This document shows positions 23,768 to 28,920 of a DNA stretch of 44,715 nt, in pieces; position 1 is the first letter of the stretch; each line of letters starts with the position of its first letter. Below the pieces are notes generated by a model. It saw only the letters and a program-made list of their open reading frames with translations. It did not search any database and was not told the origin of the DNA. The DNA is taken from positions 332,752 through 377,466 of the forward strand of contig NZ_CP118753.2 in assembly GCF_034480035.2 (NCBI RefSeq), in the 5' to 3' direction. A program made the position numbers and the translations under genes. This DNA comes from Methanosphaera sp. ISO3-F5 (GTDB lineage Archaea; Methanobacteriota; Methanobacteria; Methanobacteriales; Methanobacteriaceae).

Positions 23768-23920
23768 TTTATATGTTTATTTCATTATATATTTCAAATG
23801 TAAGAATATTTATTACAAATAGAAAACTAGTATACAAAATATTCAAAGTAATGTTTATATTTGTATTACTCTAATAAACGTACTATAAACGGTTAAATTA
23901 CTCCTTTGGAGTGTTTTTTT
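23768..23920 (+). promoter_or_regulatory. Likely mcr promoter and attenuator-like leader
   Basis: TTTATATG (23768-23775) after AAAACA is a promoter candidate with a start near 23797, about 400 bases before mcrB. ACTCC TTT GGAGT (23900-23912) followed by T7 (23914-23920) looks like a terminator. AGTAAT (23847-23852) can pair with ATTACT at 23865-23870, or with a second ATTACT at 23897-23902 that covers part of the terminator arm. The rest of the 604-base spacer contains the short inverted repeat TATGC/GCATA (24015-24028), a second TATA-like AAAATTATAA near 24126 and the ribosome site AGAGGTG before mcrB. Confidence 0.45.
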
Positions 23921-24201
23921 GTATAAATATTTGAACACAATTATGGAAATGTATTTTTAGATAGTTGGAGGGACATATTTTTTCTTATTGAAGTTTATTA
24001 CTAATCTTTTTCACTATGCGTATGCATAAAAAACACGTATTACTCAGTACTGGTTCATCAATATTTTTACCAACTAAATATTTGTTGAATAATTTACAAT
24101 ATTAAGTAATGTGAAAAGGAAAATAAGAAAAATTATAACCCGGAATGAATATGATAATTTCATTTCTTAATGAATATACTTTTTAAGAGGTGTACATATA
24201 A

Positions 24202-25530
24202 ATGCCAACATATGAAGACAAAATAGATTTATATGGGGTAGATGGAAAACTTTTAGAAGAACAAGTACCTCTAGAAGCAATTAGTCCAGTAGTAAACCCT
24301 ACAATTAAAAATATTATACAAGAAATTAAGCGTTCTGTTGCTGTAAACCTTGCAGGAATAGAAAAATCATTAGCAAACGGTGCTTACGGTGGAAAAGCAA
24401 ACTTTATTCCTGGTAGGGAATTAGAATTAGATATCGTAGGAAATGCAGATGCAATTGCAGACAAAATGTCAAAAATGTTAAAAGTTGACGCTGATGATGA
24501 CTTCAACCTTGAATTATTAAATGGTGGAAAACAAGTATTAGTACAAGTACCATCAGAAAGATTAGCTGTTTCTGGTGACTATTCAGTAGCACCATTAGCA
24601 ACAGGTTCAGCTTTAATCCAAGCTATTCTCGATACATTTGATATTAACAAATATCAAGCATCAGAAATTAAAACAGCTGCTATGGGTGGATACCCACATA
24701 ACGTAAAATTAGGCGGAGCAATCACAACACTTTTAGGTCAAACAACTCACCTTGAAGGTTTAGGATACAGCCTAAGAAACATTGGTGCTAACCACGTAGT
24801 AGCAATCACTAAGAAAAACACTCTTAACGCAGTAGCTTTATCATCCATCCTTGAACAAACCGCAACATTCGAAATGGGTGACGCAATAGGTGCATTCGAA
24901 AGAAGCCACTTATTAGGTTTAGCATTCCAAGGATTAAACGCAAACAACTTAGTTTACGATTTAGTTAAAGAAAATGGTAAAGGAACTCTTGGAGATGTAG
25001 TAGTAGCATTATTATCAAGAGCATTAGACGATGGAGTAATCAAAGTAAAAGAAACATTACCTTCCGGATACAAATTATATGAACCAGTTGACTGGGCATT
25101 ATGGAACGCATATGCAGCAGCAGGTCTCGTAGCTTCCGTTATTGTAAACGTAGGTGCAGCAAGAGCAGCACAAGGTATCGCATCATCCATCCTATACTTC
25201 AACGATATTCTCGAATACGAAGCAGGTTTACCTGGTGTAGACTTTGGTAGAGTAATGGGTGTAGGTGTAGGTATGAGTTTCTTCTCACACGGTATATACG
25301 GTGGAGGAGGACCAGGTATCTTCAACGGTAACCACGTAGTAACAAGACACAGTAAAGGATACGCAATTCCATGTGATACAGCAGCAATGTCCTTAGATTC
25401 AGGTACACAAATGTTCTCTGTAGAAGCAACATCTGCTTTAGTTGGAGAAGTATATGGTAGTGTAGACAATTTAAGAGAACCAGTAAAATATGTTGCTGAA
25501 GGAGCAAGTCAAATAAAAGATAAAATCTAA
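24202..25530 (+). CDS. mcrB: Methyl-coenzyme M reductase beta subunit
   Basis: McrB is the beta subunit of the nickel-F430 enzyme that makes methane from methyl-coenzyme M and coenzyme B. The 442 residues match the family from [15 protein letters not shown] at the start to the glycine-rich active-site region [20 protein letters not shown] near residue 362. AGAGGTG precedes the ATG. It opens a B-D-G-A operon, the order known for the isoenzyme II (mrt) type. C-ended codons show high expression. Confidence 0.97.
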
Positions 25531-26058: not shown

Positions 26059-26856
26059 ATGGCATATGACGTACAATTTTATCCTGGGGAAAGTAAAATT
26101 GCGGAAAACCGTAGAAAACACTTAAACCCAGATTATGAACTCGAAATACTAAGAAGTATTGCAGATGACGATATAGTAAAACTTTTAAGTCACAGAAACC
26201 CAGGGGAAGGTTACAAAACAGTACACCCACCTCTCGATGAAATGGACTTTGAAGCAGATGATATGAAAGACTTCGTAGAACCAATCGACGGAGCAAAAAA
26301 AGGAATTCGTATAAGATACGTACAATTCGCAGACTCAATGTATAACGCACCAGCTCAACCATACGACAGAGCAAGATCATACATGAGAAGATTCAGAGGA
26401 GTAGACACAGGTACACTCTCAGGAAGACAAGTAGTAGAAATGAGAGAATCCGACTTAGAAGAAACTTCCAAATTATTAATGGAATCCGAATTCTTCGACC
26501 CAGCAAAAACTGGATTAAGAGGAGCAACAGTACACGGTCACTCATTAAGACTCGATGAAAACGGTTTAATGTTCGACGCATTACAAAGATACGTATATGA
26601 TGAAGATGAAGGAGTAGTTAAATACGTAAAAAACCAAGTAGGTGTAGAACTCGACGAACCTATATCAGTAGGAGAACCATTACCAGAAGACAAACTTAAA
26701 GAAATCACAACTATTTACAGATATGATAACGTAAGTTTAAGAGACGACCCAGAAGTTATTAAAGTAGTAGAAGAAGTACACTTTGCAAGAACTGCTGGTG
26801 GATATGGTTTAGAAGTATTCAACGACGATTTACAAAGTAAATTAGGTGGTAACTAA
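26059..26856 (+). CDS. mcrG: Methyl-coenzyme M reductase gamma subunit
   Basis: McrG is the smallest structural subunit of the reductase. The 265 residues include the conserved N-terminal [19 protein letters not shown] and the region [19 protein letters not shown] (here RSYMRRFRG), near residue 109, which lines the coenzyme pocket. mcrG directly follows mcrD, without an mcrC between them. Its stop shares one base with the mcrA start. Confidence 0.97.
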
Positions 26857-28514
26857 TGGTAGATGAGAAAAAATTATTCTTAAAGGCTTTACAAGAAAAA
26901 TTTGATGAAGACCCTGAAGAACAAAACACTAAATATTACTGCTATGGTGGATGGGAACAATCCGCAAGAAAAAGAGAATTTAATGAACAAGCAGAAAAAG
27001 CTATGGAAGCTCGTGGAGGATTACCATTCTACAACCCAGACATAGGTGTACCTCTCGGACAAAGAAAATTAATGGCATACCAAGTATCTGGAACAGACAC
27101 ATACGTAGAAGGGGACGACCTTCACTTCTGTAACAACTCAGCTATCCAACAATTAGTAGACGATATAAAAAGAACAATTATCGTAGGTATGGATACAGCT
27201 CACGGTGTACTTGAACAAAGGTTAGGTGTAGAAGTAACTCCTGAAACAATCAACGAGTACTTAGAAACAATCAACCACGCACTCCCTGGAGGAGCAGTAG
27301 TACAAGAACACATGGTAGAAGTAGACCCAGGATTAGTAGTAGATTCCTACGCAAAAGTATTCTCAGGTGACGACGAATTAGTAGATCAATTAGATTCAAG
27401 ATTCGTAATCGACATCAACAAAGAATTCCCTGAAGAACAAGCAGAACAACTCAAAAAATACATAGGTAAAAAAACATACCAAGTATCAAGAGTACCTACA
27501 TTAGTAGTACGTGCTTGTGACGGTGGTACCACCTCAAGATGGTCTGCTATGCAAATCGGTATGAGTTTCATCTCAGCATACAAATTATGTGCAGGAGAAG
27601 CAGCAATTGCAGATTTCTCATACGCAGCAAAACACGCAGACGTAATCTCTATGGCTAGTGCAATGCCAGCAAGAAGAGCAAGAGGTCCTAACGAACCTGG
27701 AGGAGTAACCTTCGGTGCAATCTCTGATATGGTACAAACCAGCAGAGTATCAGATGACCCTGCAAAAATATCATTAGAAGTAATCGGTGCAGCATCCCCA
27801 TTATACGACCAAGTATGGTTAGGTTCATACATGTCTGGTGGTGTAGGATTCACACAATATGCTACAGCAGCATACACTGACGAAATCTTAGACGACTTCG
27901 TATACTACGGTAAAGACTATGTAGAGAAAAACTATGGTGGATTATGTCAAGCTGAAGCTTCAACAGAAGTAGTAAGAGACATTGCAAGTGAAGTAACCCT
28001 TTACGCATTAGAACAATACGAAACCCCAGCAGCACTCGAAGACCACTTCGGTGGATCACAAAGAGCATGTGTAGCTGCAGCAGGTGCAGGTTGTTCAGTA
28101 GCATTCGCAACTGCTAACTCCAACGCAGGTGTAAACGGATGGTACTTAAGTCAATTATTACACAAAGAAGGACACAGCAGATTAGGATTCTACGGTTACG
28201 ACTTACAAGATCAATGTGGATCATCCAACTCCTTATCCATAAGAAGTGACGAAGGTCTCATCCACGAATTAAGAGGTCCTAACTACCCTAACTATGCAAT
28301 GAACGTAGGTCACCAACCTGAATATGCAGGTATTGCTCAAGCACCTCACGCAGCAAGAGGAGACGCATTTGCACTTAACCCATTAATCAAAGTTGCATTT
28401 GCAGACAACAACTTAACATTCGATTGGGCTAACCCAAGAGCATGTATCGCAAAAGGTGCAATTAGAGAATTCATGCCTAGCGGAGAACGTGACTTAATTA
28501 ACCCTGCATTATAA
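26856..28514 (+). CDS. mcrA: Methyl-coenzyme M reductase alpha subunit
   Basis: McrA forms most of the active site. Residues shown to be modified or essential in characterised enzymes are all present in the 552 residues: the F430 axial ligand Gln150, methylhistidine site His260, methylarginine site Arg274 (the Mmp10 target, in [13 protein letters not shown]), Tyr335, the methylglutamine site Gln402, Phe445/Tyr446, thioglycine Gly447, didehydroaspartate Asp452 and methylcysteine Cys454 ([17 protein letters not shown]). These numbers run two or three above the Methanothermobacter ones. The last gene of mcrBDGA; probably isoenzyme II type from gene order. Confidence 0.98.
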
Positions 28515-28577
28515 GCGGGTAATAATTTACGAATATAAAGGTATCATTTATATATAACAAGGAATATATATAATAGT

Positions 28578-28797
28578 GAAGTTTCCGAGTAAACTTTAAG
28601 TATTGAAATATATTCAATAATAGTTAGTATATTGGAATCGCAAGGTACGACCCGTATTACATTCGTAGACGAGGTACGGTCTGCATTTTCCGATAATTCA
28701 AACTATTATTATACTTTTACTGGGAATTAAGGGATTATAGTTCATACATCGGAAACTATTACCTTTATGTTATTCTCTTTAGAACAACTATTTTTTT
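28578..28797 (+). ncRNA. Candidate structured non-coding RNA downstream of mcrA
   Basis: A full archaeal TATA box, TTTATATATAA (28547-28557), predicts a start near 28578. From there nested pairings follow: GTTTCCGA (28581-28588) with TCGGAAAC (28749-28756), AATAATAGTT (28616-28625) with AACTATTATT (28701-28710), GGAA (28634) with TTCC (28688), GCA with TGC, and GACC-GTA (28649-28656, one bulged C) with TACGGTC (28675-28681). A T8 tract ends near 28797. There is no open reading frame of note. The inner part is much richer in G and C than nearby spacers. I do not recognise it as tRNA, RNase P RNA or 7S RNA. Confidence 0.6.
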
Positions 28798-28920
28798 TAA
28801 CATCAATTATTTTAATTAAATTTCCACTAATTATAACTCTACAATATTGTGGAATAATTATTCTATAAAAATTAAATGTAACTTTTTAATTAATAAAAAA
28901 AGAGTGGAGTTTAGAAATTT

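Follow-up and report, generated by a model that had tools for sequence, protein, structure and literature searches.

Structured RNAs that follow a particular gene are known in bacteria, a case in point being the L17 downstream element, a conserved structured RNA placed after one gene and proposed to act in the 3' UTR (Weinberg et al. 2010, PMC2864571). The element characterized here, which follows mrtA in Methanosphaera and which we call the mrt element, is likewise placed consistently after one gene; the L17 downstream element, however, is bacterial and belongs to a ribosomal-protein gene, while the mrt element has no Rfam match. Another comparison is offered by the pan motif, whose stems carry two conserved bulged A residues and occur in tandem units, and which has been read as a dimeric protein-binding site (PMC2864571). 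The mrt element also has conserved bulged As and two units, but pan units are found upstream of pantothenate genes, whereas the mrt units pair together in one rod after mrtA, and no Rfam match relates the mrt element to this motif. The mini-ykkC RNAs (guanidine-II type) resemble it in having two repeats with ACGR; in those RNAs, hairpins in 5' UTRs have ACGR as their terminal loops (PMC2864571), whereas the mrt element is a rod. Finally, archaeal SRP RNA and RNase P RNA are structured and of similar size, and their copies lie elsewhere in the genome. Set against these systems, the mrt element is new in being archaeal and genus-restricted and in having a duplicated symmetric core, the kind itself being known in bacteria.

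The window, i.e., the whole stretch of 44,715 nucleotides of Methanosphaera sp. ISO3-F5 that was analysed, gave no match at gathering score with Rfam 15, and below that score chance matches only (E 0.62 and 3.5). The first-pass annotation had described the block after the methanogenesis genes as no tRNA and no standard RNA that it recognised, and this holds: no tRNA lies within the window, and SRP RNA and RNase P RNA were rejected as candidates, with their copies at C1:784578-784893 and C1:2436084-2436379, respectively. It had also stated that the block codes for nothing. Only mechanical open reading frames of 25-39 amino acids are present, none of them convincing, and a small protein was rejected for want of a conserved reading frame and because of indels in the alignment. 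Our search of the literature on Methanosphaera small RNAs or on the mcr 3' UTR returned nothing relevant. The element is a genuine structured RNA, previously uncatalogued; it comprises about 240 bases, with pairs kept by evolution, and very probably lies at the end of the Methanosphaera mrt mRNA.

The mrt operon and the distribution of the element

Biological methane is the product of methyl-coenzyme M reductase, and the operon upstream of the element encodes the beta, D, gamma and alpha subunits of this enzyme, without C. The last gene of the operon (26856-28514, + strand; TIGR03256, 991.7 bits) had been called mcrA in the first-pass annotation; its place in the B-D-G-A order without C, together with the reported possession by Methanosphaera of isoenzyme II only, mrtABDG (PMC6120340), identifies it as mrtA. 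On the far side of the element, a dihydroorotase gene is convergent with the operon.

A DNA search yielded 14 clear homologues of the element, all within one genus; mrtA adjoins all 14, and dihydroorotase is present beside every homologue whose stretch extends far enough. By inspecting the sequence 3' of mrtA in other genomes, we added G017, the divergent G010 and one genome of the same species. A covariance model built from the core (R1) found it once each in 17 of the 20 Methanosphaera genomes and detected no core in 132 other genomes of the phylum, its E-values being rough and the wide searches strictly filtered, so that very diverged relatives could escape; the same-strand place after mrtA holds for all core homologues. 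Three Methanosphaera genomes are core-negative: two are without assembled mrtA, and the third, G016, has after mrtA (locus L044) an unrelated 3' UTR with neither core nor TATA box, which is still strongly folded (z -5.8). The genomes G002 and G018 (97% and 91% complete) show no mrtA/mcrA match, probably reflecting an assembly gap around the operon. Among named records, the core occurs in Methanosphaera and in MAGs of uncultured Methanobacteriaceae, and no viral contig contains it; a mobile or viral element was thus rejected, given one copy per genome, fixed synteny and no match in viral contigs. Homologues in other genera were rejected as well, the weak BLAST matches being short AT-rich pieces and the covariance model finding none.

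The fold and its covariation

The + strand at 28575-28800 folds better than shuffled sequences (z -2.66), and the entire mrtA 3' UTR reaches z -3.4 to -5.9 in six species. The reverse complement also folds (z -3.47); an antisense-strand RNA was rejected because the + strand agrees with the order of the genes, with the U-tract and with the occurrence of G-U among the variant pairs. The nested helices announced by the first-pass annotation are indeed present in 28580-28757, and their pairs covary across species, but the fold is larger than described, with a further helix, P1, outside. The claimed GC enrichment applies to the core at 28636-28690 (47%) and not to 28577-28772 as a whole (31.6% against a window mean of 31.7%).

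The core is a rod made of helices P4 to P6. The 5' strand of P4, AAUAAUAGUU (28616-28625), pairs with 28701-28710, with 97.8% of cells paired and compensatory changes. P5 and P6 are formed between core unit 1 (28640-28660; GCA-A-GGU-ACG-ACC-CGU-A-UUAC) and core unit 2 (28665-28685; GUAG-ACG-A-GGU-ACG-GUC-UGC-A), its near copy and antiparallel partner, and show double changes in 8/10 and 5/10 pairs, respectively. Together, P4 to P6 comprise 29 pairs; over 16 species, pairing is kept at 96.9%, and 16 of these pairs carry compensatory (both-sided) changes, against a shuffled mean of 5.2; the core pairing was equalled by none of 500 shuffles, and the covariation signal was lost when the partner was shifted by 1-3 columns. 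Conservation of the paired positions in relatives, on which the first-pass annotation had let its proposal depend, is therefore observed in the core, and also in the outer helices P1, P2 and P3 when these are compared with a phylogenetic null. Examples of such changes are the following: at locus L008, GCA/UGC becomes AUG/CAU and the end helix UUAC/GUAG becomes UUGU/ACAA, while the CGU/ACG of other loci is CAU/AUG in L005 and AGU/ACU in L007.

Written as a consensus, the core unit is approximately GUAR-RCA-A-GRU-ACG-AYC-YGY-A-UUAC, two copies of which are paired antiparallel about a symmetric loop, ACG/ACG; 22/25 positions are identical between the copies in L012. Pairing between the copies involves 18-20 of 20 pairs, and pairing within a copy 12-19 of 20. 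Two separate hairpins instead of a rod were rejected, since within-unit pairing is broken in many species while rod pairing is kept, and tandem hairpins of mini-ykkC type closing ACGR loops were rejected on the same figures, again with no Rfam match. Conservation is high in the symmetric internal loops of the core. The duplicated, pseudo-twofold-symmetric rod, in which bulged As are conserved, probably serves to bind a protein; its symmetry and the parallel with the pan motif (PMC2864571) suggest that this protein would be dimeric.

The AT-rich outer arms are imperfectly aligned, and those of P1 were misaligned by MAFFT; for this reason the outer helices were assessed not by column counts but by swapping arms between species and by a phylogenetic null of 100 alignments, simulated along the inferred tree from the consensus sequence. 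P1, of 12 bp, is the strongest covarying helix. Its 5' arm AAUAUAAAGGUA (28532-28543), located some 20 nt beyond the mrtA stop and ahead of the TATA box, pairs with the 3' arm UACCUUUAUGUU (28760-28771), just before T8, so that P1 encloses the entire fold, TATA box included. Cognate arms pair at -17.1 kcal/mol and swapped arms at -11.8 kcal/mol, a swap cost of 5.3 kcal/mol, and the cognate-minus-swapped value of -5.99 compares with -0.38 in the null (sd 0.58, minimum -1.77 in the 100 simulated alignments). The duplex is present in 16/16 species, including the divergent G010, where the arms are UUUAGAAAAACAAAGAGUA with UACUCUUUUUUCUUUAAA.

Inside P1, the hairpin P2 (28548-28573) pairs 28548-28556 with 28565-28573. 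Its swap cost is 1.1 kcal/mol (4.7 sd), it stands 2.6 sd from the phylogenetic null, and it is moderately more stable than the other TATA sites pooled from the window and the tRNA promoters (p 0.0015); with this moderate support, the hairpin is likely real. P3 pairs its 5' strand AGUUUCCGAGUA (28580-28591) with its 3' strand UACAUCGGAAACU (28745-28757), with a swap cost of 1.3 kcal/mol (3.4 sd) and an energy of -11.4 against -5.0 in the null (sd 1.05), i.e., 6 sd out. The P3b strand AAGUAU (28598-28603) folds with AUACUU (28711-28716) and is nearly invariant, hence without covariation.

The strand S2, UACUUUUACUGGGAA (28710-28728), is near-invariant as well and could compete with the P3 3' strand (S3) for the same partner. 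A 3' UTR switch responding to a ligand or a protein, in which the P3 5' strand would exchange S3 for S2 and so alter mRNA decay or termination, could be built on this complementarity and on the high conservation of the internal loops. We consider it highly improbable: 3' UTR switches are rare, there is no known ligand, and the pairing of the P3 5' strand (28580-28592) with S2 was rejected, as the arm swap costs nothing and no covariation is seen. An alternative 3' hairpin of AAGGGA with the tail was also rejected, its arm swap costing little and its pairs showing no covariation.

TATA box, U-tracts and the extent of the transcript

The archaeal TATA box TTTATATA (28547-28554), which doubles as the 5' side of P2, is invariant in 14/15 rows and stands 31-32 nt before the P3 strand where measured, close to the 30 bases before the first arm reported in the first-pass annotation; its pairing partner in P2 varies across species. 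The T8 tract noted there after the last arm is also in place (28791-28798), and the operon transcript is presumed to terminate at it. In archaea, aCPSF1 reads U-tracts as terminators, and the efficiency of termination depends on such tracts (PMC8716108). No species has more than one U4-5 tract from the stop codon to the TATA box, and a double U4-tract terminator occurs there in none; U4-U9 tracts follow P1 in 16/16 species.

The first-pass annotation had given the RNA its own promoter. An independent small RNA gene would start at about 28576-28578, at P3, end at the U-tract and act in trans. Transcription begins about 27 nt downstream of the centre of the TATA box (PMC5316973), and the start so predicted meets the start of P3, at a box whose spacing is fixed and whose like precedes tRNA genes of the same genome. 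The part of the claim that has to be given up is that this start falls at the outermost helix: that helix is P1, and its 5' arm, upstream of the start, covaries with the tail of the RNA. An ACCA-type BRE was found in 0/15 elements against 7/11 of the listed tRNA-promoter boxes, a weak criterion in that 4/11 boxes are also without it, and G010 (locus L042) retains P1 and the core without TTTATATA. The box at conserved spacing stands, the independent gene is not established, and we regard such a gene as unlikely. At the tRNA loci L101, L105, L117, L109 and others, ACCA precedes the TATA box by about 8-12 nt, and several tRNA promoters also have a recurring downstream GTAAACAT or an AT-rich stretch; together these may form a genus-specific extended promoter.

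With the P1 5' arm upstream of the TATA box, the complete fold can form in cis only in a read-through mRNA. This, together with the lack of a double U-tract terminator before the TATA box, leads us to regard the element as best seen primarily as a 3' UTR domain, including as it does bases that only read-through would supply (28532-28543). The strong fold after mrtA in G016, which has neither box nor core, also speaks for this view. Conservation, synteny, pairing, the reach of P1 upstream of the TATA box and the position of the terminator were all computed, on comparative evidence throughout. Judging from these sequence features, we put at roughly 60% the probability that the element is a conserved structured 3' UTR in the mRNA of the methyl-coenzyme M reductase II operon, mrtBDGA, and protects the 3' end of this mRNA.

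Since no double U-tract terminator separates the stop codon from the element, RNA polymerase would read through from mrtA, synthesizing the P1 5' arm, the hairpin P2, the P3-P6 domain and, last, the P1 3' arm. This arm would close the fold directly before the U-tract where transcription is expected to end, so that all that stays single-stranded is a short U-rich tail. A key transcript would thereby be shielded at its 3' end from 3'-to-5' decay; the host genome (2.68 Mb) encodes exosome-type RNase PH domains, and these exosome subunits would be the presumptive degraders. A stable 3'-UTR-derived RNA may accumulate by trimming. Transcription in one piece, protection of the 3' end and binding of a protein are what we infer from the sequence.

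Some features fit a 3' UTR domain less well. A hairpin arm alone would not require the near-invariance and fixed spacing of the TATA box, which hint at an internal promoter; such a promoter within the element is possible. The covariation of P1 would also be expected if the mrtA 3' end were the trans partner of a separately made RNA, and a simple decay barrier would not need a core conserved in so elaborate a way. Both functions might therefore coexist, the 3' UTR domain containing an internal promoter from which a short RNA without the P1 5' arm would be made; the free tail of this RNA, UACCUUUAU, would pair in trans with that arm, just behind the mrtA stop, and tune the mRNA. The joint conservation of P1 and of the TATA box in 15 aligned species and the identity of the P1 pairing in cis and in trans speak for this combination; one stretch would, however, have to serve two functions, and neither G010 nor G016 has the TATA box, so that we hold it to be rather unlikely.

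The mrtB leader and the significance of the element

The other end of the operon also carries conserved sequence. The leader of mrtB (which starts at 24202), at 23840-24201, is conserved in 17/20 Methanosphaera genomes, and complementary segments in it covary between species, with a swap test fraction of 0.0014 for one helix and no Rfam match for the leader; it has the appearance of another conserved structured RNA, located in the 5' UTR. The leader further contains a terminator-like site (23898-23925), consisting of the hairpin ACUCC-UUU-GGAGU with a U-tract behind it, in the interval from an TTTATATT box (at about 23853) to mrtB; this is possibly an attenuator or a short leader RNA. One could imagine that the operon is framed by this co-conserved 5' leader (about 23920-24195) and the 3' element, which would jointly regulate the enzyme via a protein or metabolite, the 3' element being a duplicated, twofold-symmetric receptor of an undescribed kind; we consider this scheme speculative and quite unlikely.

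In the literature searched, we found no paper describing RNA-level control of methyl-coenzyme M reductase. As a large conserved structure in a 3' UTR, the mrt element would be an archaeal case of a class described mostly in bacteria. A genus-wide RNA domain at the end of the sole operon of this type in a gut methanogen would also provide a testable handle on how the stability of its transcript is maintained or tuned.
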